Shown in pieces: positions 3,837-23,781 of a DNA stretch of 26,269 bases (position 1 is the stretch's first letter; the number at the start of each line of letters is the position of its first letter). The position numbers were made by a program, and so were the translations under genes. The stretch covers positions 1 to 26,269 of the IMG/VR virus record IMGVR_UViG_3300038423_000198. One strand, 5' to 3'. The notes beneath the pieces are model-generated. The model saw only the letters and a program-made list of their open reading frames with translations. It was not told the origin of the DNA and searched no databases. This stretch comes from a virus.

Positions 3837-3890
3837 GTTATCTATAAGTTAGAAGCGCGTAAATTTTTATACGTGTTAGTTTTGACACAT

Positions 3891-4203
3891 GGGACCCAAG
3901 TACTAGTATGGGCACGGTCCCCAAGGCATCCCCGGCTCGCCGCGCACAGGTACGAAGATACGTTTCATCTCACACATACATCACCACTAAGTGGAACACA
4001 TCAAACCACTTACGCGCGATACGCGCACAATATACTTGCGGGGACCCAATATGAAATGCGTCTATAGATTTCACTAAAAACAATCATTTCAGCGACTGCT
4101 GAAAGGCGTTATACCATTGAAACGATGCGGCCAATGGCTGGAGGGACCCAAATTGCCCGGGCCCATGAAAATTTCTGAAGAAAGTTCTTGACAAAGGGAC
4201 CCA
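3891..4203. repeat. four dispersed GGGACCCA sites
   Basis: Exact copies at 3891-3898, 4041-4048, 4143-4150 and 4196-4203. The core GGGACCC is a near-palindrome, as expected for a dimeric DNA-binding protein. The last copy sits inside the -35/-10 spacer of the tRNA promoter, which suggests an operator role. Confidence 0.45.
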
Positions 4204-4216
4204 TCTGTGGTAGAAT
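4188..4216 (+). promoter_or_regulatory. promoter of the tRNA array
   Basis: TTGACA (4188-4193), 17-bp spacer ending TGTGG, TAGAAT (4211-4216). The spacer contains a GGGACCCA copy. The first tRNA begins 22 nt downstream. Confidence 0.8.
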
Positions 4217-4238: not shown

Positions 4239-4313
4239 GGTCGATTCGTATAACCGGCATTACGCCGCTTTCGTAAAGCGGTTATTTGGGTTCGAATCCC
4301 AAGTTGACCTCCA
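4239..4313 (+). tRNA. tRNA-Thr(CGT)
   Basis: Cloverleaf with acceptor GGTCGAT/GTTGACC, anticodon arm CCGCT-TTCGTAA-AGCGG, T-arm with TTCGAAT, U73 and encoded CCA. Reads ACG. First element of the array. Confidence 0.9.
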
Positions 4314-4391
4314 AAATTGGCGAGCTATGCTTCGCCGCGCAAGCGGAGTGAAGAGCCACCAGCGGTTCCAAGCGAACCGCAAAGTTTCAAA
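4314..4391 (+). ncRNA. structured non-tRNA segment with an ACCA-ended hairpin
   Basis: From 4319 the strand can fold as GGC...CTTC-G-CCGC-GCAA-GCGG-AGT-GAAG-A-GCC and ends ACCA, like a minihelix with a tRNA-type 3' end. It is followed by GCGGTTC/GAACCGC around a 5-nt loop. No D-arm, anticodon or T-arm can be assigned. It may be a degenerate tRNA or a new small RNA. Confidence 0.3.
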
Positions 4392-4465
4392 GCTGAATTA
4401 GTTCATCGGGAGAACGAACGCTTGGTAAGCGTTAAAGGTTGGTTCAATTCCAACATCTAGCTCCA
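4392..4465 (+). tRNA. tRNA-Thr(GGT)
   Basis: Anticodon arm AACGC-TTGGTAA-GCGTT, acceptor GCTGAAT/ATCTAGC with one A-C mismatch at position 5, T-loop TTCAATT, encoded CCA. Reads ACC/ACU. Confidence 0.85.
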
Positions 4466-4466
4466 T

Positions 4467-4541
4467 GCCCGAGTAGTTTAGTTGGCAAAACTCCCGCCTT
4501 GTAAGCGGGCGTCCAAGGTTCGAAACCTTGCTAGGGCTCCA
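4467..4541 (+). tRNA. tRNA-Thr(TGT)
   Basis: Acceptor GCCCGAG/CTAGGGC with one mismatch, anticodon arm CCCGC-CTTGTAA-GCGGG, T-loop TTCGAAA, CCA encoded. It begins 1 nt after the previous tRNA. With its two neighbours it completes the Thr codon box. Confidence 0.9.
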
Positions 4542-4647
4542 TATTAAGTCTTCCATTCTGTGGAAGCAAATCGGCTTGAGGGGCGGTGTAAACCCGCTAG
4601 GCGCTTCGGCGTTGATAGCTCACTATAGAGAGCGCAGCCCTGATTTT
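4542..4647 (+). ncRNA. structured non-tRNA cassette
   Basis: 106 nt between two tRNAs, ending in the same ATTTT linker. CTTCC-ATTCTGT-GGAAG forms a hairpin. A multi-branched fold follows: an outer AGGG/CCCT, CGG...CCCG, GGCGC-TTCG-GCGTT and GCTC...GAGAGC. It lacks CCA and a T-loop. The function is unknown. Confidence 0.3.
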
Positions 4648-4721
4648 GGCGTGATCGACAAGCGGCAAGTCAGTTGTCTGCAAAACAACCAACGTTGGTT
4701 CGATCCCAACTCACGCCTCCA
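4648..4721 (+). tRNA. tRNA-Cys(GCA)
   Basis: Perfect acceptor GGCGTGA/TCACGCC, anticodon arm GTTGT-CTGCAAA-ACAAC, U73 as in bacterial tRNA-Cys, CCA encoded. Confidence 0.93.
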
Positions 4722-4727
4722 TTTTAT

Positions 4728-4815
4728 GGATTGGTCGCATAGCGGCAATTGCCACTGGCTGTAAACCAGTTGCTCCTTCGGAGCTTCGCACGTTCGAGTC
4801 GTGCCCGATCCACCA
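4728..4815 (+). tRNA. tRNA-Tyr(GTA)
   Basis: Acceptor GGATTGG/CCGATCC, anticodon arm ACTGG-CTGTAAA-CCAGT, long variable arm GCTCC-TTCG-GGAGC typical of bacterial tRNA-Tyr, A73 and CCA encoded. Confidence 0.93.
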
Positions 4816-4993
4816 TTTTGATACTTAGGTCAGGACGAGATGCTTTGCACCTCGCAAATGGCCGTTTCAGCAACAGACGAGTCATCCAAGTCGTGGCCAC
4901 GGCAAGTCTGATGCTGAGATACCTAATACCCGAAAGGGCGTCCAAGAGAAGGATGACTGGTTGCAAACGTTCTCTTGGATGAATACAGTCTGA
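4816..4993 (+). ncRNA. structured RNA cassette of about 170 nt
   Basis: Two domains are visible. In the first, TTAGGT (4825-4830) pairs with ACCTAA (4921-4926) and encloses several short helices, including CGAG/CTCG. CCC-GAAA-GGG follows. In the second, TCCAAGAGAA (4941-4950) pairs perfectly with TTCTCTTGGA (4970-4979) around a 19-nt loop. It is flanked by tRNAs and preceded by the ATTTT linker. It matches no tRNA or other RNA family I can recall. Confidence 0.45.
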
Positions 4994-5072
4994 TGCGGAA
5001 TAGTTTAGTCCGGTCTAAAACGCATGGCTCATAACCATGATATCATCGGTTCAAATCCGATTTCCGCTACCA
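4994..5072 (+). tRNA. tRNA-Met(CAT), unpaired 1-72
   Basis: Anticodon arm CATGG-CTCATAA-CCATG and T-loop TTCAAAT, CCA encoded. Acceptor positions 2-7 (GCGGAA/TTCCGC) pair, but positions 1 and 72 are U and U. A non-paired 1-72 is an initiator feature in bacteria. The three G-C pairs of an initiator anticodon stem are missing, so it is probably an elongator or an Ile2-type CAT tRNA. Confidence 0.85.
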
Positions 5073-5081
5073 ATTTTCTAC

Positions 5082-5169
5082 TGGGGTGTGGCTCAACCGG
5101 CACAGCAGATGGCTGTTACCCATCCAGAGCGCAAGCTCATTACAGGTTCGAATCCTGTTGCCCCAGCCA
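5082..5169 (+). tRNA. tRNA-Asn(GTT) with a long variable arm
   Basis: Acceptor TGGGGTG/TGCCCCA, anticodon arm GATGG-CTGTTAC-CCATC, T-arm ACAGG-TTCGAAT-CCTGT, G73, CCA. The variable region is about 17 nt with hairpin GAGC-GCAA-GCTC. Asn tRNAs normally have a 5-nt variable loop, so this is unusual. Confidence 0.85.
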
Positions 5170-5175
5170 TTTTAT

Positions 5176-5252
5176 GAGGTTATCGCGTAGCGGCCTATCG
5201 CGCTTCCCCGTCACGGAAGACTTCGCGGGTTCGAATCCCGCTAGCCTCGCCA
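5176..5252 (+). tRNA. tRNA-Asp(GTC), C33
   Basis: Acceptor GAGGTTA/TAGCCTC, anticodon arm CTTCC-CCGTCAC-GGAAG, G73 as expected for Asp, CCA encoded. The base before the anticodon is C instead of the almost universal U33. Confidence 0.88.
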
Positions 5253-5378
5253 TATTGATTTTTCAAGCGAGCCCGGCATCGTATCTACTCCCAAAAGGGT
5301 AAGATGAATAATCCGGGTCGGTTGCCAGCCCCACGAAAAGGAAGCAATCATTCCTGCCGTCTTGAATTTGGATTCAAT
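5253..5378 (+). ncRNA. structured non-tRNA cassette
   Basis: 126 nt between tRNA-Asp and tRNA-His. AGCCCGG pairs with CCGGGT around a smaller hairpin (CCC-AAAA-GGG with ATCT/AGAT flanks). A second unpaired part (GGTTGCCAGCCCCACG...) follows. No tRNA features or ORF. The function is unknown. Confidence 0.3.
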
Positions 5379-5453
5379 GGTGCTTTTGGTGTAGTGATAG
5401 CACGCTCGGCTGTGAACCGGGTAGGCTCAGTTTGAATCTGAGATTGCACCCCA
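5379..5453 (+). tRNA. tRNA-His(GTG)
   Basis: Anticodon arm CTCGG-CTGTGAA-CCGGG, T-arm CTCAG-TTTGAAT-CTGAG. An encoded G at -1 faces C73, the identity element of tRNA-His. Acceptor positions 5 and 6 are U-U mismatches. CCA encoded. Confidence 0.88.
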
Positions 5454-5459
5454 ATTTAT

Positions 5460-5533
5460 CCCGTTTTGGTCTAACGATATGACCCCTGTTTGAAGCACAG
5501 GTAGTCGTGGTTTAATTCCACGGAACGGGACCA
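5460..5533 (+). tRNA. tRNA-Phe(GAA)
   Basis: Acceptor CCCGTTT/GAACGGG, anticodon arm CCTGT-TTGAAGC-ACAGG, T-loop TTTAATT, A73, CCA encoded. Confidence 0.9.
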
Positions 5534-5541
5534 TTTTCAAT

Positions 5542-5617
5542 TGCCCGATGGTGTAACTGGGAACATGGTGGACTTTGAATCCATCCGATAAAGGTTCGAA
5601 TCCTTTTCAGGCAACCA
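5542..5617 (+). tRNA. tRNA-Gln(TTG)
   Basis: Acceptor TGCCCGA/TCAGGCA with one C-A mismatch at 5-68. U1-A72 is typical for Gln. Anticodon arm GTGGA-CTTTGAA-TCCAT, CCA encoded. It shares its acceptor pattern with tRNA-Gln(CTG) at 8520. Confidence 0.9.
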
Positions 5618-5618
5618 T

Positions 5619-5696
5619 GCAAGTGTGATGCAATTTGGCAGACATCTCTAGCTCAAACCTAGAGTCTTGTGGGTTCGACTCCCACTGCTTGCACCA
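5619..5696 (+). tRNA. tRNA-Leu(CAA) with a short variable loop
   Basis: Acceptor GCAAGTG/TGCTTGC, anticodon arm TCTAG-CTCAAAC-CTAGA, T-arm GTGGG-TTCGACT-CCCAC, A73, CCA. The variable loop is only about 5 nt (GTCTT), whereas bacterial Leu tRNAs have a long variable arm. Confidence 0.85.
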
Positions 5697-5700
5697 ATTT

Positions 5701-5787
5701 CGCCAAGTGATGGAACTGGCAGACAGCAATCACTTAAAACGATTGGCTCGAAAGAGCGTGTGGGTCCGATCCCCACCTTGGCGACCA
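5701..5787 (+). tRNA. tRNA-Leu(TAA)
   Basis: Perfect acceptor CGCCAAG/CTTGGCG, anticodon loop CTTAAAA closed by an A-C mismatch over AATC/GATT, long variable arm GCTC-GAAA-GAGC, CCA encoded. Confidence 0.9.
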
Positions 5788-5792
5788 ATTTT

Positions 5793-5867
5793 GGGCTACT
5801 AGTGTTAAGGTAGCACAGCGGCCTTTTAAGCCGACGAGTCAAGGTCCAAGTCCTTGGTGGCCCACCA
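5793..5867 (+). tRNA. tRNA-Lys(TTT)
   Basis: Acceptor GGGCTAC/GTGGCCC, anticodon loop CTTTTAA over CGGC/GCCG, T-arm CAAGG-TCCAAGT-CCTTG, A73, CCA encoded. Confidence 0.88.
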
Positions 5868-5975
5868 ATTTTCGGAACATGCAGCGTGTCCTTTTGGGTG
5901 CAACCAAGAGAGCGGACACAGCATCAAAGTTGTGGTGCTTGCAAACTCCACATAATGTTTCCGAATTCATTTTGA
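5868..5975 (+). ncRNA. multi-branched structured RNA cassette
   Basis: A closing stem TTCGGAACAT (5871-5880) with ATG-T-TTCCGAA (5955-5965) encloses two arms. One is GTGTCC (5886-5891) with GGACAC (5914-5919), capped by CTTTTGG/CCAAGAG. The other is GTGG/CCAC (5932-5951). The whole is a compact three-way-junction RNA of about 95 nt between tRNA-Lys and tRNA-Glu. It has no anticodon or T-loop and matches no family I can name. Confidence 0.5.
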
Positions 5976-6049
5976 GGCCACATAGTTTAGTGGAAGAACG
6001 GCAGGTTCTCAACTTGCTCGCAGGAGTTCGATTCTCCTTGCGGCCCCCA
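5976..6049 (+). tRNA. tRNA-Glu(CTC)
   Basis: Acceptor GGCCACA/TGCGGCC with one mismatch, anticodon arm GCAGG-TTCTCAA-CTTGC, T-loop TTCGATT, C73, CCA encoded. A CTC anticodon reads GAG only; the TTC isoacceptor follows at 6584. Confidence 0.85.
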
Positions 6050-6057
6050 GTTTTCAG

Positions 6058-6086
6058 TTGACAAGCGGCCAAGTTTGTGGTAGAAT
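6058..6086 (+). promoter_or_regulatory. internal promoter before the HNH gene and later tRNAs
   Basis: TTGACA (6058-6063), 17-bp spacer ending TGTGG, TAGAAT (6081-6086), almost the same as the array promoter at 4188. The leader up to 6184 folds into a perfect hairpin, GGGGGTG/CACCCCC, around 6140-6160. Confidence 0.8.
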
Positions 6087-6184
6087 GTAATCTGAATCGG
6101 AGTGATCCTTCGAAGGGTGGCGACCATTACCGCTAGGTTGGGGGTGCCACTATCACCCCCGACATCTCTATAGTGGAGAGAAAA

Positions 6185-6598
6185 ATGAAGATGTGCCCGA
6201 AGTGCGGAAAAGATAACGGAAAGAATGACACTCATGGCGGGTCCTATTGTCACGAGTGTAAAAACGAGTACCAAAAGCAACAAGGATATAATCGTGTTTG
6301 TTATCTGAAAAACAAAGACAGCATCATTGCCCGACTAAAACTTCGAAAACAGGCACGGGTAGAAATAGTTCGCGATGCCAAAAACAAACCTTGTATGGAT
6401 TGTGGAATTTCTTACCCATACTGGATAATGCAATTTGACCACGTGCGTGGAATCAAAACCGGGAATCTTGGTCAAATGTTATGGCGCTTTGGCATAAAGA
6501 GAATTTTAGAAGAGATTTCTAAGTGCGAAGTTGTTTGTGCAAACTGTCATGCGAATCGCACGTATATCAGACAGAAAAATAACGGGGAAGTGGTCTAG
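6185..6598 (+). CDS. HNH homing-type endonuclease inside the tRNA array
   Basis: A 137-residue protein from ATG 6185, with GGAGAG 5 nt upstream. N-terminal zinc-finger pairs CPKC and CHEC are followed by a basic region. The HNH core is CMDCGISYPYWIMQFDHVRG, then EVVCANCHANRTYIR, with Cys pairs framing DH and the closing N/H. Such enzymes cut DNA and often act as free-standing homing endonucleases. It has its own promoter and structured leader. The last 15 nt of the gene are also the first 15 nt of tRNA-Glu(TTC). Confidence 0.85.
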   Translation: MKMCPKCGKDNGKNDTHGGSYCHECKNEYQKQQGYNRVCYLKNKDSIIARLKLRKQARVEIVRDAKNKPCMDCGISYPYWIMQFDHVRGIKTGNLGQMLWRFGIKRILEEISKCEVVCANCHANRTYIRQKNNGEVV

Positions 6599-6659
6599 TG
6601 ATGAAGATACTGGCCCTTCAAGCCAAGTGACGAGAGTTTGAATCTCTCCTTCCCTACCA
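6584..6659 (+). tRNA. tRNA-Glu(TTC), overlapping the HNH gene
   Basis: Acceptor GGGGAAG/CTTCCCT (G1-U72 wobble), anticodon loop CCTTCAA over GGC/GCC, T-loop TTTGAAT, A73, CCA encoded. Position 33 is C rather than U. The 5' end lies within the HNH coding sequence. Confidence 0.85.
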
Positions 6660-6667
6660 AGTTCAAC

Positions 6668-6753
6668 GGATGGGTGGCGAAACGGTAGCCGCACCAGTTT
6701 GCTAAACTGGCAACCGAAAGGTTGTGAGAGTTCGAATCCCTCCTCATCCGCCA
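6668..6753 (+). tRNA. tRNA-Ser(GCT)
   Basis: Acceptor GGATGGG/CTCATCC, anticodon arm CCAGT-TTGCTAA-ACTGG, long variable arm CAACC-GAAA-GGTTG, G73, CCA encoded. Confidence 0.93.
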
Positions 6754-6762
6754 ATTTTCAAA

Positions 6763-6868
6763 CGGTCTGTGGCCGAGCGGAACAGGCACCCGTTTCCTAA
6801 ACGGGACCGATATAGGCGTTCGTCTTCTAAACGAACTAAGGCTGGTTCGACTCCAGTCAGGCCGTCCA
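6763..6868 (+). tRNA. tRNA-Arg with two anticodon arms (CCT and TCT)
   Basis: One acceptor (CGGTCTG/CAGGCCG, U73, CCA) and one T-arm (TTCGACT) enclose two successive anticodon arms. The first is CCCGT-TTCCTAA-ACGGG (anticodon CCT at 6796-6798). The second is GTTCGT-CTTCTAA-ACGAAC (anticodon TCT at 6826-6828). Between them ACCGATATAGGC looks like a shortened copy of the D-arm (GCCGAGCGGAACAGGC). It looks like a partial tandem duplication, or a fusion of two Arg tRNAs by internal deletion. The second arm could act as a long variable arm. Both anticodons decode Arg. Confidence 0.8.
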
Positions 6869-6873
6869 TTTTT

Positions 6874-6947
6874 GTGCTGCTAAGTCAGTGGCAGACTAGT
6901 TGACTCTTAATCAACGAACGAGTGTTCGATTCACTCGCGGCACACCA
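6874..6947 (+). tRNA. tRNA-Lys(CTT)
   Basis: Acceptor GTGCTGC/GCGGCAC, anticodon arm GTTGA-CTCTTAA-TCAAC, T-loop TTCGATT, A73, CCA encoded. Confidence 0.92.
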
Positions 6948-6953
6948 ATCTAT

Positions 6954-7027
6954 AGACTGTTAATTCAACGGCAGAATGCTTGTCCTACACACAAGTCATG
7001 GCGGTTCGAATCCGTCACGGTCTACCA
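6954..7027 (+). tRNA. tRNA-Val(TAC), C33
   Basis: Acceptor AGACTGT/ACGGTCT, anticodon arm CTTGT-CCTACAC-ACAAG, T-loop TTCGAAT, A73, CCA encoded. The anticodon is preceded by C instead of U33. Confidence 0.88.
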
Positions 7028-7028
7028 T

Positions 7029-7103
7029 GCGCTGTTCGTTCAACGGACAGGACAGAACGCTACGAACGTTCAGACGGGGGTTCAATTCCCTCACGGCGCT
7101 CCA
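7029..7103 (+). tRNA. tRNA-Arg(ACG)
   Basis: Acceptor GCGCTGT/ACGGCGC, anticodon arm GAACG-CTACGAA-CGTTC, T-loop TTCAATT, CCA encoded. A34 would be expected to be deaminated to inosine by a host TadA. Confidence 0.9.
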
Positions 7104-7182
7104 TTTTGCAAAGCACGACACCTGTGCGACTGTATATACAGTCAGTGGTGTGATTGGCGAACCGAACGTCGCCTCTTTTTAT
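7104..7182 (+). ncRNA. structured spacer with perfect palindrome and terminator-like hairpin
   Basis: A 16-bp perfect palindrome GACTGTATATACAGTC (7128-7143) sits within an outer ACACC/GGTGT helix. Then GGCGA/TCGCC (7156-7173) is followed by TCTTTTT. The latter could attenuate transcription within the array just before tRNA-Arg(TCG). Confidence 0.4.
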
Positions 7183-7257
7183 GGCTCTATCGTCCAACGA
7201 ACAGGGCACTGGTCTTCGAAACCAGCTATCACGGTTTGAATCCGTGTAGAGCCTCCA
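7183..7257 (+). tRNA. tRNA-Arg(TCG)
   Basis: Perfect acceptor GGCTCTA/TAGAGCC, anticodon arm CTGGT-CTTCGAA-ACCAG, T-loop TTTGAAT, CCA encoded. Confidence 0.93.
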
Positions 7258-7263
7258 TTCTTA

Positions 7264-7520
7264 ACGGTGAACAAGAAGTCGCGGCGAAAGCCGAGGAAGT
7301 TCCGGCCATCTGGTCAAGGTGCCGTGGAAGCTGCGGGGCGCGAAAGCGCACGGGTAAGAGTTCGGCAAGCCTTGCTCTATCCACTTGTCCGAAACGACTC
7401 CACACCGATGCAAGGCAAATAGGGCAGAGGCTGACCACCGATAAAGACTGCCGGGTTGCTGCTTAGACGAATGACTTCTACTTACGCAAGTGAGAACAGA
7501 AGCCGGGCTACGGGCACCGT
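7264..7520 (+). ncRNA. rnpB: RNase P RNA (compact, bacterial type)
   Basis: The catalytic RNA of RNase P, which removes 5' leaders from pre-tRNAs. The conserved regions occur in order. GAGGAAGTTCCGG (7293-7305) corresponds to CR I. GGGTAAGAG (7352-7360) corresponds to the J11/12 region. GATGCAAGGCAAATAGG (7407-7423) corresponds to CR IV at P15. TAGACGAATGACT (7464-7476) follows, and ACAGAAGCCGGGCTA (7496-7510) is CR V. The ends pair as P1: ACGGTG (7264-7269) with CACCGT (7515-7520). At about 257 nt it is shorter than typical 350-400-nt bacterial forms, so peripheral helices are lost. It lies between tRNA-Arg and tRNA-Ile inside the array, whose tRNAs carry encoded CCA. No protein subunit gene is in this window. 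Confidence 0.92.
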
Positions 7521-7541
7521 AAAGGCATCACAATTTTCAAT

Positions 7542-7615
7542 TTCCTTGTCGTATAATGGCAATACGCGTGGCCGATTACCGCGCTATGGTGGTTCGAATC
7601 CATCCAAGGAAACCA
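7542..7615 (+). tRNA. tRNA-Ile(GAT), C33
   Basis: Acceptor TTCCTTG/CAAGGAA, anticodon arm CGTGG-CCGATTA-CCGCG, T-loop TTCGAAT, A73, CCA encoded. U33 is replaced by C. Confidence 0.88.
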
Positions 7616-7648
7616 TTTTTCAAAATCAACGACCAAAGGTCTACGATA

Positions 7649-7942
7649 ATGAATGCAAGAAAACAAAGAGTAGTAGCACAATTAGGTATGCCTCCTGGTA
7701 CGGCTGCGGGAAGACTTCGCAAGATTATTCTTTTTCATTTGCTTTGCAGACTTGAAGAAAATATATGCTTTAAGTGTGCCAAAGAAATAGTAACTGTTGA
7801 TGAGTTGAGCATCGAGCACAAAGAGCCATGGGAAGGCCGCTCTGCTGAGTTGTTTTGGGATTTGAATAACATTGCATTTTCCCATCTGCGGTGCAATACT
7901 ATACACCGAGTAAAAATTGGAGAGTATAATACTGCAAACTGA
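7649..7942 (+). CDS. small HNH endonuclease-like protein
   Basis: A 97-residue protein from ATG 7649 (MNARKQRVVAQLGMPPGTAA). The core is ICFKCAKEIVTVDELSIEHK, then EPWEG, LFWDLNNIAFSHLRCNTIH. This is a compact HNH/zinc-finger pattern with C-x2-C, EH, a helix with N, and H-x2-C. The gene sits between tRNA-Ile(GAT) and tRNA-Ile(TAT) with a weak ribosome binding site (AAAGG). It is probably a mobile or DNA-nicking nuclease lodged in the array. Confidence 0.75.
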   Translation: MNARKQRVVAQLGMPPGTAAGRLRKIILFHLLCRLEENICFKCAKEIVTVDELSIEHKEPWEGRSAELFWDLNNIAFSHLRCNTIHRVKIGEYNTAN

Positions 7943-7991
7943 CAATGCCGGATAGACCGCGCGGATTCACTGGTAGAACAAGAAAAGTTTC

Positions 7992-8083
7992 TGTCGATAG
8001 CACAGGGTGCAGCGAAGACTTATAAACTTCGGAAAGCGCCAGATTAGCGCAACGGGTCGGCTCAATACCGACATCGACAACCA
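7992..8083 (+). tRNA. atypical tRNA-Ile(TAT) with long variable region
   Basis: Perfect acceptor TGTCGAT/ATCGACA, anticodon arm GAAGA-CTTATAA-ACTTC (A-A at the top pair), T-arm GTCGG-CTCAATA-CCGAC, A73, CCA encoded. The D-arm is very short (GCAC/GTGC). The variable region of about 25 nt forms GCGC-CAGATTA-GCGC. A TAT anticodon reads AUA directly, avoiding lysidine. The T-loop starts with C rather than T. Confidence 0.75.
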
Positions 8084-8133
8084 TTTTTTGTAGGGCCTTA
8101 GAATATCATGCTCGATGAGCAAAGGAGAGTAAA

Positions 8134-8343
8134 ATGATTGCTAATCATTGTATTGAGATTGTAGAACAGGAAGATGGTACTTACGTTTATCCTGTTTTGA
8201 ATTACAAAAGAGCGCGAGGATGGCATTTGTGTGTGTACAAGGACGGGTCTGCCGATTTATTTCAGAAAGTCGGACCCCATGGTGCCTTGTTGGGAAAACC
8301 GATTCATCTTCCGCATCCAGTAATAATTGTAGACGAAGAATAA
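8134..8343 (+). CDS. hypothetical small protein in the tRNA array
   Basis: A 69-residue protein with AAAGGAGAG 5 nt before the ATG. It starts MIANHCIEIVEQEDGTYVYP and appears all beta (YVYPVLNYK, WHLCVYKDG, PIHLPHPVIIV). No family is recognised. It lies 50 nt after tRNA-Ile(TAT) and 8 nt before tRNA-Ser(TGA), so it shares their transcript. Confidence 0.6.
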   Translation: MIANHCIEIVEQEDGTYVYPVLNYKRARGWHLCVYKDGSADLFQKVGPHGALLGKPIHLPHPVIIVDEE

Positions 8344-8351
8344 ATTTTGAT

Positions 8352-8443
8352 GGAGGGCAGTCGGCAATGGTGCCTCACTGTCTTGAAAACAGTACCACCG
8401 GCTAAGACCCGGTGACAGAGTTCGATTCTCTGGCCTTCCTCCA
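8352..8443 (+). tRNA. tRNA-Ser(TGA)
   Basis: Acceptor GGAGGGC/GCCTTCC, anticodon arm ACTGT-CTTGAAA-ACAGT, long variable arm CACCGG...CCGGTG, T-loop TTCGATT, CCA encoded. Confidence 0.93.
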
Positions 8444-8519
8444 TTTTCTACTGGCCTTCGCTGATGCCGCGACTAACGAGTGTGGGGTAAAGCCCCTATC
8501 GGGACAGCCAATTTTCTAT
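8444..8519 (+). ncRNA. tRNA-like remnant or small structured RNA
   Basis: Between ATTTT linkers, a unit of about 61 nt starts CTGGCCT and ends GGGACAG-CCA. The ends pair with one mismatch. Inside are TCGC-TGATGCC-GCGA and GGGG-TAAAG-CCCC. There is no proper anticodon loop or T-loop. It is either a decayed tRNA or another array RNA. Confidence 0.3.
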
Positions 8520-8594
8520 TGCCCGTTCGTTTAACCGGAAGGACAGCGGCCTCTGAAGCCGTGAATCTACGTTCGAATCGTAGACAGGCAACCA
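8520..8594 (+). tRNA. tRNA-Gln(CTG)
   Basis: Acceptor TGCCCGT/ACAGGCA (same C-A mismatch as the Gln TTG gene), anticodon arm GCGGC-CTCTGAA-GCCGT, T-arm CTACG-TTCGAAT-CGTAG, CCA encoded. Confidence 0.92.
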
Positions 8595-8598
8595 TATT

Positions 8599-8672
8599 GG
8601 GCTGGGAGTAGGCTGAGAATACGTTCGGTTTGCACCCGAAAAAACAGGGTTTGATTCCCTGCCGGTCCACCA
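8599..8672 (+). tRNA. tRNA-Ala(TGC)
   Basis: Acceptor GGGCTGG/CCGGTCC, anticodon arm TTCGG-TTTGCAC-CCGAA, T-loop TTTGATT, A73, CCA encoded. The usual G3-U70 Ala identity pair is present. Confidence 0.93.
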
Positions 8673-8793
8673 ATTTTGTACAAGCGGTACGCACCCTATA
8701 AGTGGAAGCCAAGGGGATGCGTAGTCCTAGGGAATCCGCGCTTCACGCCGAGGCCCGATTGAACCCGGGAGCAACACGGCGAACAATTTCTAC
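8673..8793 (+). ncRNA. structured RNA cassette
   Basis: First domain: AAGCGG (8682-8687) with CCGC-G-CTT (8736-8743), then TACGCA (8688-8693) with TGCGTA (8718-8723) and CCC/GGG. Second domain: CGCCG (8746-8750) with CGGCG (8777-8781) around an inner CCCG/CGGG. It is flanked by ATTTT-type linkers like the tRNAs. Family unknown. Confidence 0.45.
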
Positions 8794-8868
8794 AGGCGGT
8801 TAAGCTCAACGGCAAACTGTCCGTCTCCAAAACGGAACTTGGGAGTTCGAATCTCTCACTGCCTGCCA
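8794..8868 (+). tRNA. tRNA-Trp(CCA)
   Basis: Acceptor AGGCGGT/ACTGCCT (A1-U72), anticodon arm TCCGT-CTCCAAA-ACGGA, G73 as in bacterial Trp tRNAs, CCA encoded. Last tRNA of the array. Confidence 0.93.
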
Positions 8869-9005: not shown

Positions 9006-9872
9006 TTGCGCAGTCTCTTTTTTATCGCAAGACATGGTCAGACTGTCCTAAATGAATCGGGACGTTATCGCGGATGGTCTGATGGTCCTGACGCCCAACT
9101 CAACGAAGATGGTATTCGATCTGCTCATGAAGAAGGCAAGTTTCTTCAGAAGCTGAAGCAGCCGTTTTCAAAGATCATATCATCCCCTCTACAACGCGCA
9201 GTCTTGACTGCTGCTATTATCGCGGAGTATCTTGGAGTCGAGTTCATTGAAATTGATGATCGCCTTCTGCCTTTGAATGTTGGCGATTTCAAAGGGCAAT
9301 CCAAAGCAGATCACCCTATTCAGCCATTTCTTGACAACAAGAACAAAAGATTTCCAAATGGCGAAACGATCAATGAGTTTGAATATCGTCAGCACGAGTT
9401 TGCCGAAGACCTTCTAAAGATAATTGAAAAAGAAAAGAGCACGGAAGACCCCGAAGTTTTGGTTGTTGCCCACGTTTCAAATGTGATGTACTGGTGGAAC
9501 CTGCAGACCGGCGCGAACAGCGATGAGTATTTGGGCGAGACGACGGATATTATTAGCTCCGGTGGCATTGCACTGATCGCGGAGTATACCACGATTCCGA
9601 TTTTCAAGTCTAATCCTGAAGCCGAATCCGATCACTCCATACAAATTGACATATCTGCGGTTCAAGGGGAGACCGGAACTGGATACGAGCCCGCTGCGAA
9701 CAAGGGGCCATTCTCTTGTGCTAACTGTGAATTTTTTCGATCTGTGGATAATTCCTGCGGACAGGATGACATGTTGAAGAAGTCAAAGCAGCCGCGCACT
9801 TCCGATGGCCGAATTAAGGTTGATCCGAACGCCTGCTGTGAGTATGTTGCCCGAGTCGGCAATGGCAAATAA
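9006..9872 (+). CDS. histidine phosphatase fused to a Cys-rich domain
   Basis: A 288-residue protein from TTG 9006 with AAAGGA upstream. This start places the phosphatase RHG motif (IARHGQT, catalytic H10) at the usual distance from the N-terminus. Further marks of the phosphoglycerate-mutase-like superfamily are SSPLQRA (R64), PNGE (E120) and VVAHVSNV (second His, 156). After a linker (residues 200-232) comes a domain with C238-x2-C241, C251 and CC277-278 (FSCANCEFF ... DPNACCEY), a Cys pattern I recall from phage virion-associated proteins. Substrate unknown. It precedes the structural block. Confidence 0.8.
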   Translation: MRSLFFIARHGQTVLNESGRYRGWSDGPDAQLNEDGIRSAHEEGKFLQKLKQPFSKIISSPLQRAVLTAAIIAEYLGVEFIEIDDRLLPLNVGDFKGQSKADHPIQPFLDNKNKRFPNGETINEFEYRQHEFAEDLLKIIEKEKSTEDPEVLVVAHVSNVMYWWNLQTGANSDEYLGETTDIISSGGIALIAEYTTIPIFKSNPEAESDHSIQIDISAVQGETGTGYEPAANKGPFSCANCEFFRSVDNSCGQDDMLKKSKQPRTSDGRIKVDPNACCEYVARVGNGK

Positions 9873-10290
9873 GTGGACGAAGACTCATTGTAAACATGGG
9901 CACGAATTTACTCCTGAGAATACTTGCTGGGATAAACATCGTCGTCGTTCTTGTAGAGTTTGTGGCCGATTAAAATATGCAAGATTGATGGGCGGTCCTG
10001 AAAAGAAACGGTATCATTCAGATCGTTATAGAATGTGGAAATATGGTATAAGCGCAGAAGTGTTTGTTGCGATGCTCGCGGCTCAAAATAATTGTTGTGG
10101 AGTATGTTTGAAACCTTTCTCGGAAGATAAAGGGATGGAGGCGGTTGTAGATCACTCCCATGTTACCGAAATGAATCGAGGATTAGTTCATAGAAAATGC
10201 AACATGGCTCTTGGTCTTCTACAGGATGATCCTGTTACTTGCAAATTGGCCGCAGCATATTTGGAAAAATATCTCGGGGAGAAGAAATGA
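9862..10290 (+). CDS. endonuclease VII-like HNH nuclease
   Basis: A 142-residue protein from ATG 9862, overlapping the previous gene by 11 nt. The N-terminus has CKHGHEFTPENT and RRSCRVCGRLK. The core NNCCGVCLKPF, VVDHSHVTEMNRGLVHRKCN, MALGLLQDDP and AAAYLEKYL matches the recombination endonuclease VII family (C-x2-C, DH-x-H, RG-L-x2-C-N, L-G). T4 endonuclease VII resolves branched DNA before packaging. Many stand-alone relatives behave as homing nucleases. The function here is uncertain between the two. Confidence 0.85.
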   Translation: MANKWTKTHCKHGHEFTPENTCWDKHRRRSCRVCGRLKYARLMGGPEKKRYHSDRYRMWKYGISAEVFVAMLAAQNNCCGVCLKPFSEDKGMEAVVDHSHVTEMNRGLVHRKCNMALGLLQDDPVTCKLAAAYLEKYLGEKK

Positions 10291-14147: not shown

Positions 14148-14582
14148 ATGACAAAGGAAGAGAAGGCCATTTATAATAAAAAGTGGCAATCTGCTCATCC
14201 TGTGTATGCTTCTAAAAAGTCTAAAGAGTGGAAGGCGGCGCATGTCGAAGAGAAGAAAGTTTACGACAAGCGGTATCATAAGGACCGCCTTATGAAAGAC
14301 CCACTCTATCAAAGACGATATGCGTATAAGAAATTATATGGCATAAGTTTGGAAGAAAAAGAGCGCATTTTAGCATCTCAAAACAGGTGTTGTGCTATTT
14401 GCGGCATTCCAGATGCCAAAAAATGGTGTGTTGACCACGATCATTTTGCAGAAGTTACAACAGGCGAGATTGTTATTCGTGGAATTCTTTGTTCTACGTG
14501 TAATTTCTTGTTGGGTCATGCAAAAGATAATGAGAGTATTTTATTGGCCGCAGTAGAATATCTTAGAAAGAACGGTAAATAA
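14148..14582 (+). CDS. endonuclease VII-like HNH nuclease
   Basis: A 144-residue protein. A Lys-rich helical N-terminus (YNKKWQSAHPVYASKKSKEW) is followed by YGISLEEKERILASQNRCCA, ICGIPDAKKWCVDHDHFAEV, IRGILCSTCNFLLGHAKDN and LLAAVEYLRK. This is the complete recombination endonuclease VII signature (C-x2-C, DHDH, RG-x-LC-x2-CN-LG-x3-DN). It starts 5 nt after the previous stop with a poor ribosome binding site and separates two motif-sharing genes, so it may be a homing insertion. Confidence 0.87.
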   Translation: MTKEEKAIYNKKWQSAHPVYASKKSKEWKAAHVEEKKVYDKRYHKDRLMKDPLYQRRYAYKKLYGISLEEKERILASQNRCCAICGIPDAKKWCVDHDHFAEVTTGEIVIRGILCSTCNFLLGHAKDNESILLAAVEYLRKNGK

Positions 14583-15359: not shown

Positions 15360-17150
15360 GTGGGCATCTCAAATCTCGGTGACTTGAACTTCCGATTGAC
15401 ACTGCCCGATGTGCAGAAGTTGTCTAAGGAAGAACAAGACAACGTGAAAATTCGAATCCAGACTGATTTGCGTTTTCTGGTTAACTGCGTTTTGCGTCCT
15501 GCAAACTCCAAGAAGTTTCCAACACTTCTGGAAAAGGTTCATGGAAAAATTATTGACTCGTTCCTTCAGCCTGATCCTCACAAAGATTCTTCTGAATGGG
15601 ATGAACGGGATGAGTTTGTAGTATTGGCTTCCCGAGGCATGCTCAAATCTACAATTGGAGCGGCCTTTCTAACTCAAGTTATTTTGTGTTCTCCTGACAT
15701 TCGTATTCTCATCATGTCAGGAAAAATTGATAAAGCTAAGAGCATCCTTGCAATGGCTCGAAAGCCATTCTTTTCCAATCAAGTTATTCGGCATTTGTTT
15801 CCTGAATGGGCGATTGAAGAATCAGATATCAAACTTGAAGAGTTCACAACTCCAAAGCGAAACCCTGAACTAGACCTTCGAGACCCAACCATCTCCCTTG
15901 CCAGCTTTGAGTCTGTAAAAGCTGGAGGCCACTATGAACTTGTGTTTTTGGACGACGCGACAAACGAAATCAATTCGTCCAATTTAGAGAATTGCGAAAA
16001 AACCCACGGCACATACGATGATACTGACGAGCTAGTTGAGCCGGGCGGATATCGGATGTTTTTGGGCACCAAATGGCATGAAGAAGATTTACCCGCTTAC
16101 ATCTGTCGAAAAGGCGCGGAAGACAAAGAGAAATCTGGACGTGAGACAGTTTCTTATTTTGTTTTGCCCGCATGGACGCTCCGTAAAGATGGAACGCCAA
16201 AAGAAATAGAAGAACGGATAAAGAGAGAGAAGAACGGCCAACTTACTCCTGATGATGTCGATCTTACTTGGCCTGAGAAGCTGAATGCAAACTTCTTATT
16301 CAAACGCTATCGCCGGAATCGTTCTGATTTCTACAAGCAATATTTGCTTGATGCGTCTTTGGACGAGACGCCAAAGTCATTCACAGAAGCAATTCTGAAG
16401 AGACAGATCACATCTCCAAACGATCTTCTGCAAATTCCCATGCATGACCGTTCAGTTGTTGTTCACTGGGATTTAGCATCTGCATTTACTGGCCGACGCA
16501 AGAAAAGTGAATCAGATTATTCCTGTGGCATTATCGCGGTATTTCAGAACAGCACGATGAGAATGTGGGTTGTGCAGGTTGTTCTGGCACACTACAACAA
16601 TGGTACTGATGTTTCAAACGCCATCGTTCAGTTGTATCGGACAGCGGAATATTTCGGGCCCATTGTCGGCCATAGCATCGAAGACGCCATGGGCGTCCGT
16701 TGGCTGGAAGATCAGATCAATGAAGCTGTACGAAGAACTGCCAAGCCAAACGATAAACCGTTCAAGTCTATCACATGGGAATTACCGAACAACGAATTGA
16801 ATGCAAAGAATGTCCGTATCGCGGTATTGGCATCGGCCATGAAAGACGGACATGTCTTTATCAACTCCAATGTCGGGTTCATTGATGATGTCCGCTCTCA
16901 ATTTGAAAAATGGACGCTTGATGCCAAGCGCCGTAAAGACGATGCTCCTGATTGCATCGCGCAGGCTTGGCAATACTATCGCCCGCTGATCTTTCCTAAG
17001 ACCATTGAGAGTTTGAAACCTAGCGGGCCCATTCTCACATGGGAGCCTGAACTTCCGCCCGAAGCACCGGACTCGCATGCAGGAGAAGGTGAAAGCACGG
17101 ATATTGATGCGGTGAATTCAACTAATGTTGCAAGTCTATATCGAGGATAA
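15360..17150 (+). CDS. terL: terminase large subunit
   Basis: A 596-residue protein, probably starting at GTG 15360, 2 nt after the previous stop. The ATPase half has Walker A ASRGMLKST (90-98), Walker B ELVFLDD (193-199) and the coupling motif MFLGTKWH (233-240). The C-terminal RNase H-like nuclease has acidic residues in VVHWDLAS (D371), SIEDAMG (E441/D442) and KDDAPDCIAQAW (D527, D528, D531). It pumps genome DNA into proheads and cuts concatemers. No small-subunit gene is obvious upstream in this window. It is followed by portal after a 9-nt gap, the standard order. Confidence 0.95.
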   Translation: MGISNLGDLNFRLTLPDVQKLSKEEQDNVKIRIQTDLRFLVNCVLRPANSKKFPTLLEKVHGKIIDSFLQPDPHKDSSEWDERDEFVVLASRGMLKSTIGAAFLTQVILCSPDIRILIMSGKIDKAKSILAMARKPFFSNQVIRHLFPEWAIEESDIKLEEFTTPKRNPELDLRDPTISLASFESVKAGGHYELVFLDDATNEINSSNLENCEKTHGTYDDTDELVEPGGYRMFLGTKWHEEDLPAYICRKGAEDKEKSGRETVSYFVLPAWTLRKDGTPKEIEERIKREKNGQLTPDDVDLTWPEKLNANFLFKRYRRNRSDFYKQYLLDASLDETPKSFTEAILKRQITSPNDLLQIPMHDRSVVVHWDLASAFTGRRKKSESDYSCGIIAVFQNSTMRMWVVQVVLAHYNNGTDVSNAIVQLYRTAEYFGPIVGHSIEDAMGVRWLEDQINEAVRRTAKPNDKPFKSITWELPNNELNAKNVRIAVLASAMKDGHVFINSNVGFIDDVRSQFEKWTLDAKRRKDDAPDCIAQAWQYYRPLIFPKTIESLKPSGPILTWEPELPPEAPDSHAGEGESTDIDAVNSTNVASLYRG

Positions 17151-21134: not shown

Positions 21135-23781
21135 ATGCCTAGTAATTCACAGGCTTCATTTGTTATCGGCTCAACTTTGCCAAGCACCCAAGCGGTCTTT
21201 TATGATCGTTTGGCAGTACGTGCTTTGTTCGCGCATCTTGGGTTCCAAGGGCTGACCGCAGAACGTCAGATTCCGAAGAACGCAGGTCGCACGACACAAA
21301 TTTACACGTATAACTTGGCTCCGTTTACTGCGAACGTTTCAGCAAACGCGATTGATATTGGTGGTGGACCCATCAATACCCCGCCCCCGACTGCCGTAGA
21401 AGGCACCGTGGGCACACCAATCGTGCCAACTGAAGCGAGCATCCAAGCAGTGCTAGGTCAGTACGTTGATTACGTCAACGTTTCTGACTTTGCTCTTGCT
21501 GTGGATATTGGAAAGCCTCTCGAACAACTCAGCGAAATGCTTGGGTATCGAGGCGCTCTCGTGGTTGATACGTTGATTCAGCAAGGCTTTGATGCTGCTG
21601 TTTCTACGGACCCAACTGCAAGCGTTCAGCTTTCTGATGGTAGCTACGTGACCCGTGCGGTTCTTAACACGGCTGTGGCTACAATTCGCGGAAAGAACGG
21701 ACGACCTTTTGCCGGTGGAAGAATGCGTGGAATCATGCATCAACAAGGGTGCATGCAAAATTAAGCTATATCCGTTAATATCTTACATTTAGCTTGACAA
21801 AGTATCAGATATGTGATACAATGTTTAGTGAAATAAGACAAGACGGAGGAAAGACTTCGATGGATCACAACGCATGGCCGTATGTGGCCGGAATTTTAGA
21901 TGGTGAAGGAAGCATCTACGTTGTCCGTGGTCAACGCTCAGACGGATGTTCGGGTGAGCGATTTGAATTGGGAATCAAAATTAGCAATACAGATTTCCGT
22001 CTCATCAAATGGCTACTGCACAACTTTGGTGGACGATTTCAGACTGATGTTAGCAACCGCAAAGGACGAGGTTTTTCTTCTTTGCGGGCCAAACTTTTAT
22101 ATCAGTGGAAATTGTCTGGCAGCAAAAACAAAGAGAAGTTTTTGTTAGGTGTTATCCCGTATATGATTATCAAGCAGGAACAAGCTAAACTCGCTCTTGA
22201 GTGGGTTAGATTGGGAACTGGTTGGAATCAAGAAAAGCGCGCGGTGCTGGCAGAAAAAATATCAGCACTGAACCACGGCCATCTAATCGAAGAATCCCCA
22301 ACGACTAATACGCTTAACACTCCATTTTATGGAATGAAGATAGAGTCTGAACTGCATGGTGACATGCAGAGTGATCCTGCGGTGACGCAGAAATCCTAAA
22401 CAAAAATTACCTTATATACTTAACGATGTTGCTAACGACCTGACTCACAACGGCGTTCTCGACACCGAGAAGTACACCCGTGAAGGACAGAAGTGGATTG
22501 AAGCTGGCCTCGCAGAAGATAATGAAATCATCCCGGTAGCGGGTATCGATTTCGTTATGAGCACCAACGTTCCGTTGGTTGCCAACTTGCCCGCATCTGG
22601 TAAGTCTTCTTGGGAAACCTACATTACTGCTGACGAGACGATGTTCGCTATCGCTCTTGGTGGTTTTGAAGACGTTCCTTAACCATTGCCGTTTCATGAA
22701 GTTACGGCACAGGGTACGTAAAATCTCGCTATATCGGGGAAACACCTGATACCCCTCAGGCCAATCCCGAGGCAACCTGCGCAAGCAGAGAGTCCGTAGA
22801 GACTACACGCGAGAAACATCTTGACAAACTACAGAATTTGTGGTATAATGTTTGGGTGTTATGATATAGTCCGTTCTGCATGGTAACATGCAGAGTTAGG
22901 GGTGAGACATGGGTTTTGCAACAGTAGAACAAGAGCGGCAATACGCTCGTCAGTATTATGCCCGCAATCGGGCCAAGATACTGGAGCATGCTCGGGAGAA
23001 GTATGCCGAGAATGCAGAACTACGTAAAGCGAAATCAGATTATCGAAAAGAATGGTGGAAGGGCGTTTCTTCCGACTGGGACCGTTACAAGATTTATATG
23101 GTTCGCCGGGCTCGTCACCGTGCCAAGATGCTTGGTCTTCCTTTCGATCTCACACCTGATGACATCACTATTCCAGAGGTATGTCCGCTTTTGGGAATTC
23201 GTTTACAAGTGGCAACAGGTCGTCACAAAGACGATTCACCTGCTCTTGACCGAAGAATTCCTGAAAAAGGGTATATCAAAGAAAATGTGATGGTCATCTC
23301 GCAACGCGCCAACGTTTTGAAACGGGATGCTTCTTTAGAAGAGCTAGAGAAGCTAGTTGACGGATTGCGAAGAATAACAAATTAAGGACGAATCCAACTT
23401 CAAGGCAAACATCTATGAATTCGCACCGAGTGCATTTGACCCGGGCGGAGAAATAGGTGGAGCGGTTAGTTACAACTAAGTAAAATTGGTTCATCGTGGC
23501 GAAATCCGCGAATGAGAATCTTCTCTAATTGACTCGAACCCTGAAATGGCAACGAGGCGGAAGCGAAAGCACCGTGAGAGACTAAGCGAGAAGACACCCT
23601 TCGGGGTGATGCAATAGTCCGAGCACACAGGAATCCAACTGTGTGAGATTGTCAGAAATGCACAATCCCCCAAGTTATTTGGGGTAACAATCCTGTTAAG
23701 TTCGTCGTAACTCCCCGTCCTGCCGCCGCTGGCACGTTCCTGCCCTTCCGACGTATTTTGTCGGAAACAGCAACAGCCTAA
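21135..23781 (+). CDS. major capsid protein, four exons interrupted by three group I introns
   Basis: Exons: 21135-21740, 22410-22679, 23387-23477 and 23696-23781, together encoding 350 residues. Exon 1 (MPSNSQASFVIGSTLPSTQA ... RMRGIMH) and exon 2 (PYILNDVANDLTHNGVLDTE ... ALGGFEDVP) join as IMH-P, a hydrophobic-H-P step typical of HK97-fold capsid proteins. Exon 3 (DESNFKANIYEFAP ... GGAVSYN) and exon 4 (FKFVVTPRPAAAGTFLPFRR ... ETATA) complete the C-terminus. Each exon stops in-frame within a few codons of its 5' splice site. Boundaries rest on P1 pairing with a U-G pair, frame continuity and, for introns 2 and 3, a terminal G. The position after portal and putative scaffold supports the identity. 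GAGGT precedes ATG 21135. Confidence 0.82.
21794..21822 (+). promoter_or_regulatory. intron-internal promoter for the LAGLIDADG gene
   Basis: TTGACA (21794-21799), 17-bp spacer ending TGTGA, TACAAT (21817-21822). Same class as the promoters of early-region genes and the tRNA array. Confidence 0.7.
21860..22399 (+). CDS. LAGLIDADG homing endonuclease
   Basis: A 179-residue protein from ATG 21860 (GGAGG at 21846-21850). YVAGILDGEGSIYVV is the single LAGLIDADG motif, with the catalytic acidic residue in LDGEGSI. GIKISNTDFRLIKWLLHNFG and LYQWKLSGSKNKEKFLLGVI are the following strand-helix parts of this fold. With one motif it probably acts as a homodimer, making a double-strand cut at intron-less capsid alleles. 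The C-terminal residues ESPTTNTLNTPFYGMKIESE are encoded by ribozyme core sequence, so protein and RNA constrain each other. Confidence 0.88.
   Translation: MDHNAWPYVAGILDGEGSIYVVRGQRSDGCSGERFELGIKISNTDFRLIKWLLHNFGGRFQTDVSNRKGRGFSSLRAKLLYQWKLSGSKNKEKFLLGVIPYMIIKQEQAKLALEWVRLGTGWNQEKRAVLAEKISALNHGHLIEESPTTNTLNTPFYGMKIESELHGDMQSDPAVTQKS
22821..22849 (+). promoter_or_regulatory. intron-internal promoter for the HNH gene, in the P8 loop
   Basis: TTGACA (22821-22826), 17-bp spacer ending TTTGTGG, TATAAT (22844-22849). Closely matches the promoter at 929-957. Confidence 0.8.
22909..23385 (+). CDS. HNH homing endonuclease in intron 2
   Basis: A 158-residue protein from ATG 22909, preceded by GGTGAG. 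The N-terminus is a basic, coiled-coil-like region (RQYARQYYARNRAKILEHAR). The nuclease part has EVCPLLGIRLQ, then DDSPALDRRIPEKGYIKENV and MVISQRANVLKRDASLEELE. This matches phage HNH proteins of the form S-P-x-L-DR-I ... GY-x-x-N-v-x-v-i-S-x-x-A-N. The stop ends one base before the intron's last G. It probably cuts intron-less capsid alleles near the exon 2/3 junction. Confidence 0.85.
   Translation: MGFATVEQERQYARQYYARNRAKILEHAREKYAENAELRKAKSDYRKEWWKGVSSDWDRYKIYMVRRARHRAKMLGLPFDLTPDDITIPEVCPLLGIRLQVATGRHKDDSPALDRRIPEKGYIKENVMVISQRANVLKRDASLEELEKLVDGLRRITN
23478..23695 (+). other. group I intron 3 (218 nt, no ORF)
   Basis: P1: exon AACT plus intron AA pairs with TTGGTT (23485-23490), with U-G at the splice site. 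P3 is TCTTCTC (23519-23525) with GAGAAGA (23588-23594). P7 is GACTA (23580-23584) with TAGTC (23615-23619). P8 is CACCC-TTCG-GGGTG (23595-23608). P9 is CACACAG/CTGTGTG (23624-23645). Further stems are GATTGT/ACAATC and CCCC/GGGG. The intron ends at G695 and exon 4 completes the codon TTT (Phe). The compact core with no ORF suggests the endonuclease was lost or never present. Confidence 0.85.

Follow-up and report, generated by a model that had tools for sequence, protein, structure and literature searches.

Sequence evidence for a conserved, reduced RNase P RNA encoded in phage tRNA arrays

Comparative sequence analysis indicates that a 257-nt element within the tRNA array of a tailed phage is genuinely an RNase P RNA, phage-encoded, conserved and of reduced form, a variant of a known ribozyme. 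We consider it probable (about 0.8) that this catalytic-domain RNase P RNA uses the RnpA protein of the host to mature the CCA-encoding pre-tRNAs of the phage, and it is in this sense that we infer its transcription, RnpA binding, cleavage and benefit to the phage. RNase P RNA is generally regarded as a housekeeping ribozyme of cells, and RNase P RNAs devoid of the specificity domain are to our knowledge otherwise represented by laboratory deletions of the bacterial type and by archaeal type T. A preliminary description of this DNA had proposed a phage-encoded RNase P RNA embedded in a tRNA array, a proposal now strongly supported by a covariance-model match, 15 distinct covarying sequences, the tRNA context and a terminase gene in 18 of 19 records.

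Results

Position of the RNA in the window

The window, by which we mean the whole stretch of DNA analysed, is a virus record of 26,269 bases (IMG/VR IMGVR_UViG_3300038423_000198) with matches to terminase, portal and major head proteins; the presence of a terminase large subunit identifies it as a tailed phage. Its relevant features are:

4188..4216, + strand, promoter-like site TTGACA-17-TAGAAT upstream of the first tRNA (consensus match only)
4239..8868, + strand, tRNA array of 26 ARAGORN tRNAs plus one found by Rfam at 6763-6865
6058-6086, + strand, second promoter-like site (consensus match only)
7264..7520, + strand, RNase P RNA gene from P1 to P1 (cmscan envelope 7263-7525)
15360..17150, + strand, terminase large subunit (phrog_38, E 5.2e-43)

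The covariance-model search suggested in the preliminary description was positive: the class A bacterial RNase P RNA model RF00010 spans 7263-7525(+), model positions 1-367, with 74.7 bits and an E-value of 6.6e-23. This score is below the curated gathering score of RF00010 (100 bits), at which a whole-window Rfam scan does not return the RNA, and routine annotation therefore misses it. The RNA is flanked on the same strand by tRNA-Arg(tcg) at 7183-7257, 6 nt upstream, and tRNA-Ile(gat) at 7542-7615, 21 nt downstream; these ARAGORN calls agree with the placement first described. The tRNAs of the array, all 26 of the ARAGORN set with an encoded CCA, are the likely substrates of the RNA. Their number had been given as 28, a figure which we correct to 26 by ARAGORN and one by Rfam, the latter being a 44.2-bit match at 6763-6865 missed by ARAGORN.

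Some further features of the window deserve mention. Promoter-like sites number eight in the region against 5.6 expected, and four copies of GGGACCCA, possibly regulatory sites, lie at about 3890-4205, upstream of the first tRNA and near the promoter-like site. HNH and endonuclease VII domains occur at 7556-7942, 9805-10290 and 14148-14582, the first of these in a frame which overlaps and then extends past the tRNA-Ile downstream of the RNase P RNA. A group I intron (RF00028, 64.1 bits) is found at 22684-22893, downstream of the major-head-protein frame; this frame matches only positions 26-199 of the 356 of its profile, and the gene is probably split.

Anatomy of the window RNA

The elements of the RNA, all on the + strand, were assigned from the sequence and from its relatives:

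7264..7269, P1 5' strand ACGGTG, pairing with 7515-7520, also in the minimum-energy fold
7274..7280, P2 5' strand AGAAGTC, pairing with GACTTCT at 7473-7479
7283..7292, P3, a short hairpin GGC-GAAA-GCC from the sequence, of varying length among relatives
7293..7307, CR-I, GAGGAAGTTCCGGCC, with the P4 5' strand at 7298-7306 and a bulged U at 7301
7307..7310, P5 5' strand CATC, pairing with GATG at 7407-7410
7311..7316, 5' strand TGGTCA of the P6 pseudoknot, pairing with TGACCA at 7432-7437
7318..7321, P7 5' strand GGTG, pairing with CACC at 7403-7406
7322..7336, P8, CCG at 7322-7324 with CGG at 7334-7336, invariant and hence without covariation evidence
7338..7349, P9, GCGC-GAAA-GCGC, compensated in relatives
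7351..7358, joining strand CGGGTAAG, identical in 14 of 15 distinct sequences (CGGGUUAG in L211)
7359..7396, hairpin replacing P10-P14, CR-II and CR-III; no CR-III, 103 positions skipped in the covariance-model alignment
7403..7413, P7 and P5 3' strands, then J5/15 GCAA (sequence and relatives)
7414..7460, P15 region, with P15 at 7414-7416/7458-7460 (compared sequences)
7417-7423, L15 AAATAGG (CR-IV; compared sequences)
7423-7427/7448-7452, P16 (compared sequences)
7453-7456, GGGT, expected from known RNase P biochemistry to pair with tRNA CCA
7480..7491, P19-like hairpin ACTT-ACGC-AAGT (sequence)
7498..7510, CR-V, AGAAGCCGGGCTA, with the P4 3' strand at 7502-7509
7515..7520, P1 3' strand CACCGT (sequence)

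The perfect P1 helix that had been described as closing the 257-nt element is thus borne out, with 6 bp. The core signature is present, with CR-I and CR-V forming P4, the CR-IV region, J5/15 GCAA and P15 with GGGU. In RNase P RNA the GGGU of L15 binds the CCA of tRNA, and here it is suited to the CCA that the phage tRNAs encode; it is found in 15 of 15 distinct sequences, as is the bulged U of P4, which at 7301 we take to be the equivalent of E. coli U69. The phage RNAs have the type A layout, in which the P6 pseudoknot (UCAACA/UGUUGA in relatives) stands with P16/P17, although P17 is short in the window RNA at only about 2 bp. By eye, P18 was seen neither in the window nor in 13 of the 15 distinct sequences, and seven of the 15 have a hairpin at the P19-like site.

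Pairing of P4, which had been singled out for scrutiny in a full fold, does not appear when the window RNA is folded by itself to minimum energy; P1 and P2 are formed, and the fold is no stabler than shuffles (z -0.26). A GAGGAA...AGAA pair able to form all eight P4 pairs at a distance of 120-420 nt nevertheless occurs once in the window, at 7293, and in none of 300 dinucleotide shuffles, and comparative data support the helix fully.

Homologues in viral contigs

Viral contigs were scanned with three patterns, two of which were not keyed on CR-I. The CR-I-keyed scan returned 22 stretches, with RF00010 matches of 65.9 to 102.3 bits in 10 of 22 records; the other two returned 22 and 60 stretches and led to 57 new records, of which 50 gave eight matches and the other seven none. 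No viral contig matched a class B CR-I pattern, and L017, picked up by a CR-V 16-mer match, was dropped as it has neither tRNAs nor an RNase P RNA match. Counting the window, the clade of its RNA thereby amounts to 19 records with 15 distinct sequences; only four of these records attain the 100-bit gathering score, so that annotation at this score would miss the RNA in the remaining 15.

In all 19 records the RNA lies inside a tRNA array and on the tRNA strand, and in 10 of the 15 distinct cases a tRNA is at most 13 nt away on at least one side. At this distance tRNA processing can also trim the ends of the RNase P RNA. The phrog_38 terminase is present in 18 of the 19; the one without a match, G021 (20.7 kb), has an RNA equal to that of G028, which does have phrog_38. 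The RNA of G005, close kin by the window terminase, is letter-for-letter the same and in the same context. RNase P RNA was detected in none of three records in which the terminase is 57% identical and the tRNAs number 25-29, two of which share the array layout and look like one phage; its absence from all three of these array-bearing relatives indicates that the RNA is an addition which such arrays do not require. In L094, L097 and L210 ARAGORN called a tmRNA overlapping tRNA-Lys. Of 164 Rfam matches in L094 and six further loci, the 150 listed include no tmRNA, so that these calls are probably false.

Covariation

Pairing was counted on a segment alignment built by hand from the 15 distinct sequences, in which the register was chosen by eye for P6 in L061, L212 and the window RNA, and for P15 and P17 in L061. 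Paired cells and columns with two-sided compensation were as follows:

P2, 98 of 98 cells, 6 of 7 columns (14 sequences; L069 omitted, its 5' end being cut by the covariance-model match, with the P1/P2 strand further upstream)
P4, 120 of 120 cells, 4 of 8 columns
P5, 48 of 60 cells (fourth pair not real), 3 of 4 columns
P6 pseudoknot, 89 of 90 cells, 5 of 6 columns
P7, 72 of 75 cells, 2 of 5 columns
P8, 45 of 45 cells, no variation, 0 of 3 columns
P9, 60 of 60 cells, 4 of 4 columns
P15, 59 of 60 cells, 3 of 4 columns
P16, 67 of 75 cells, 4 of 5 columns
P17, 52 of 52 cells (window and L212 left out), 3 of 4 columns

When 3' strands were shuffled among sequences, 2000 times per helix, no shuffle matched the observed pairing of P2, P4, P6, P7, P9, P15, P16 or P17, a single one matched that of P5, and every one matched that of P8, which does not vary. 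Partner shuffles of this kind ignore relatedness and so overstate the case, and the variety of pair types is the stronger point: the outermost P4 column has A-U in six sequences, C-G in four, U-A in four and G-C in one. Addition of 14 more sequences (13 new ones and that of G052) gave 232 of 232 paired P4 cells over 29 distinct phage-record sequences, with a U at the bulge in 28 and an A in one; in this count the CR-V site was taken as the best-pairing AGAA site, and L296, L310 and L311 were left out. P4 of the phage RNAs shows changes of A-U to G-C or C-G, and of G-C to U.G or U-A. A one-base shift of the universal P4 bulge (GAGGAAGUUCC/CCGGGCUA) was considered and dropped, as column counts put the bulged U in its usual place. 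The invariance of CR-I, CR-IV, parts of CR-V, P7, P8, J5-15 and L15 carries no weight, being fixed by the search patterns.

Loss of the specificity domain

Five conserved blocks had been described in the window RNA. Of these it has CR-I, CR-IV and CR-V, and a small hairpin stands in the place of CR-II and CR-III. A CR-III expression matched 17 of 20 bacterial rows and none of the 18 phage rows, and a CR-II expression 19 of 20 and one of 18 (L214, where the match is CR-V), the bacterial rows being the 20 rnpB that could be parsed by regular expression out of 30 loci, with 10 unparsed. As the CR-II expression is loose and can match CR-V, the CR-III result and the 103 RF00010 positions skipped at the replacement hairpin are the better evidence. 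This hairpin is variable and lies between CGGGUAAG and ACUCCACAC in the phage RNAs, at a site where the GGYAAAC(C/U)CC strand is unbroken in 18 of 20 bacterial RNAs. The phage RNA may be read as one in which this bacterial strand is interrupted by an inserted hairpin and P10-P14 are lost, and the window RNA appears to be of type A descent, cut down to the catalytic domain and P7-P9. According to passages of PMC4919922, CR-II and CR-III lie in the specificity domain and contact the D and T loops of tRNA. In L064:1501-1766 the replacement hairpin includes a stretch resembling a tRNA T-arm (CGGGUUCAAAUCCGU), as if a piece of tRNA had been inserted.

Longer, intermediate and very short forms

A scan of viral contigs for canonical CR-IV and GGGU returned 34 stretches, with an RF00010 match in 18 of 21 new records. 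Four are further short forms (G157, G170, G171, G173) and seven are intermediate forms with P18 by eye (G156, G158, G160, G165, G167, G169, G172), several of which retain the CR-II/III remnants ACAGAGACGA and GUGAAAC. In G164 (L305; 360 kb, with terminase) an HNH-like reading frame is seen by eye inside the RNase P RNA gene, possibly a homing insertion into this RNA. Together the short and intermediate forms and G164 make 12 records, and tRNA genes, from 4 to 30, were found in each stretch examined. The phrog_2 terminase is present in eight of 19 records (G052, G156, G157, G158, G159, G164, G165, G169), weakly in G156 and G165; the phage nature of G160, G167 and G170-G173 follows the IMG/VR classing. 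G153 and G159 have in common a partial 53-bit match, and G155, G161 and G163 were not counted because they have high scores and no phrog_2 match and look bacterial.

The two extremes are found in G052 and G168. The former (363 kb; L056, L269, L270) has a full-length class A RNase P RNA at L056:8153-8517 (299.5 bits), 0-1 nt from tRNA-Trp; it also has terminase and portal genes and, spread across 39 kb, 47 tRNAs and a tmRNA. In the latter (L307 / L288) the match is 158 nt long (79.4 bits), the specificity domain is wholly missing, an A replaces the bulged U of P4, and the fold is moderately stable (z -1.94); this may be the smallest bacterial-type RNase P RNA. The contig has phage DNA polymerase and clamp-loader genes and is in our own reading T4-like, and tRNA genes were not found in its 46 kb (33% GC).

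Canonical CR-I in viral contigs was accompanied by an RF00010 match in 21 of 23 records. A tRNA scan of nine of the 23 loci found more than one tRNA only in L056 (G052), and a terminase-family search of six records gave matches in G052, G050 and G054. G054 (L263) and G050 (L264) are about 35 kb in size, have a canonical rnpB (268 and 266 bits) and no tRNA in the loci, and may be phages or proviruses with a neighbouring host rnpB. Viral records with a canonical rnpB, several with the gene at a contig edge and with a bacterial or proviral look judging from scores and positions, raise the question of whether bacterial DNA has been misjoined to viral contigs. For the window clade such misjoining is hardly credible and is already contradicted by the single terminase family in 18 of 19 records, by the recurrence of the same RNA and context in a second record, by the similar tRNA neighbours across records and by the separation of the clade from bacterial RNAs.

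Nine phage-record RNase P RNAs were compared by blastn with 50,697 phage records, where six had no match, L307 had only two 35-base matches (E 0.5), L056 matched nine records and L297 three. The L056 and L297 matches include a Salmonella genome record, two "Acinetobacter phage MD-2021a" records and five fecal clones, one of which is without annotation; a carrier isolate is possible among the remaining matches. In the record named Microcystis phage MaAM05 (MW495066.1 111323-119473, L271), fabI, engB and glyS lie beside an rnpB-like stretch, and the region looks bacterial.

Descent

In a tree of 43 RNAs the 19 short phage RNAs group in a single clade (support 100/100), the seven intermediate phage RNAs in another (90/95), and 16 bacterial RNAs lie with that of G052 on a third side (96/84). 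The tree leaves out L305, L307, L310, L311, L296 and four empty bacterial rows, and its deep order is uncertain owing to the 271 columns, the MAFFT alignment and the small number of bacteria.

The phage CR-I was found in 0 of the 20 parsed bacterial rnpB. Searching for it together with GTGCCR in 84,980 bacterial and archaeal genomes gave 51 stretches, none leading to rnpB by regular expression; RF00010 matched the genomes of 44 of the 46 stretches so checked (40 above cut-off). L145, the sole stretch with CR-V by regular expression within 600 nt, looks like a fortuitous match inside a coding region. A recent capture from a host is rejected, because the CR-I of the clade was not seen in any bacterial rnpB examined. 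That the RNA could be a non-functional relic of a captured host rnpB is suggested by its shortening, its score below the curated one and its thermodynamically ordinary fold; compensatory changes in eight helices across deeply diverged sequences speak against this and indicate ongoing selection, and with the outcome of the genome search they make a relic very unlikely.

Discussion

Relation to known RNase P RNAs

The phage RNAs share with bacterial class A (RF00010; E. coli M1 RNA) P1, P2, P4 with its bulged U, P5, P6, P7-P9 and P15-P17, as well as CR-I, CR-IV, CR-V and the GGGU of L15. They differ in being set in phage tRNA arrays and in having no P10-P14, CR-II or CR-III nor, in the window, P18. 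A further difference is next to the P4 bulge, where 21 of 29 phage-record sequences have U.G, a share partly fixed by the CR-I scan pattern, and bacterial CR-I has a G in 20 of 20 parsed cases.

Theta ribozymes are reportedly HDV-like and self-cleaving, being neither RNase P nor trans-acting. They resemble the present RNAs in that they too are phage ribozymes tied to tRNAs (PMC10879173). Archaeal type T (also type P; Pyrobaculum and relatives) has, according to passages of PMC4919922 and PMC5839562, lost nearly all of the S-domain and P18, with P6 modelled as kept. It is however an archaeal RNA with archaeal proteins, whereas the phage RNA best fits the bacterial class A model, retains P7-P9 and has its own replacement hairpin, and the likeness is probably convergent. 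Among the RNase P RNAs of CPR bacteria, passages of PMC8172020 describe some found only at lowered covariance-model thresholds and one without P12, P13, P14 and P18; these are cellular genes, and the CCA-binding motif kept in the phage RNAs is missing in 23 of 35.

No report of a phage RNase P RNA was found among the best matches, by title or start of abstract, in the open-licence PubMed Central literature. No such case appears in passages of PMC11143913 and PMC4919922, and passages of PMC2996960 contain no mention of phage, virus or plasmid. An earlier report may exist, for instance in a subscription paper or a preprint.

Proposed function

The RNase P RNA would be co-transcribed with the tRNAs of its array and would fold into a P1-P2-P4-P5-P15/P16 core with the P6 pseudoknot. 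The window RNA would then bind host RnpA, hold a pre-tRNA through its acceptor stem and encoded CCA, the latter by the GGGU of L15, and cut at the tRNA 5' end; cleavage at the neighbouring tRNA could help to free the ends of the RNase P RNA itself. Without the elbow-binding part the enzyme should depend less on the shape of the tRNA elbow and more on RnpA and CCA. An RnpA gene (PF00825) was found in 0 of 16 and 0 of 24 records (40 in total, mostly fragments and including 35 carriers), which makes the host RnpA the likely partner. Passages of PMC5839562 report that E. coli type A RNA without the S-domain still cleaves, at a rate about 120-fold lower, helped by P6-like pairing and unaffected by loss of P18. 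The phage RNAs show the same set of features, with P6 kept, the S-domain replaced and P18 missing in 13 of 15. PMC3308948 deals with the exchange of E. coli RnpA for foreign versions.

The same reduction could also suit a decoy, that is an RnpA-binding core without efficient cleavage which titrates RnpA and slows the maturation of host tRNAs. RnpA binds RNase P RNA at the catalytic domain, which is what the phage RNAs have kept while losing the substrate-recognition part, and no phage RnpA was found. A decoy is improbable, however, as it would need neither the P4 bulge (U in 28 of 29) nor the J5/15 GCAA nor a GGGU loop able to pair with CCA, and a block of RNase P would hurt the phage's own tRNAs; the location in a tRNA array also fits processing better. 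Quite improbable too is an active ribozyme with another main substrate, for example phage polycistronic mRNA or host RNAs: loss of elbow recognition should widen the substrate range, and the 158-nt form of G168, with no tRNAs in 46 kb, indicates that one carrier may act on something else, but 19 of 19 window-clade records place the RNA in the tRNA array on the tRNA strand. Maturation of the phage's own pre-tRNAs with host RnpA thus remains our preferred reading.

The forms span a full-length RNA in a 363-kb phage, intermediate RNAs in several lineages, catalytic-domain-only RNAs in the window clade and 158 nt in a phage which we read as T4-like. A broader proposal, which we regard as evenly poised, is that an RNase P RNA of their own is an old and recurrent trait of tRNA-rich phages, forming with host RnpA phage-specific holoenzymes which recognise the acceptor stem and CCA and not the elbow, and which sustain the maturation of phage tRNAs when host machinery is shut off or attacked. 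The partial independence from host tRNA processing put forward in the preliminary description is plausible, but as the 40 records searched yielded no protein subunit, dependence on host RnpA would be the likelier state. The finding that related viruses also carry an RNase P RNA suggests that they have a tRNA-processing ribozyme of their own and do not rely wholly on that of the host. Natural RNAs without the S-domain offer a direct test of how large a part of RNase P is required in vivo, and a conserved phage lineage of RNase P RNA lying under annotation cut-offs bears on the large tRNA sets of phages and on their translational independence.
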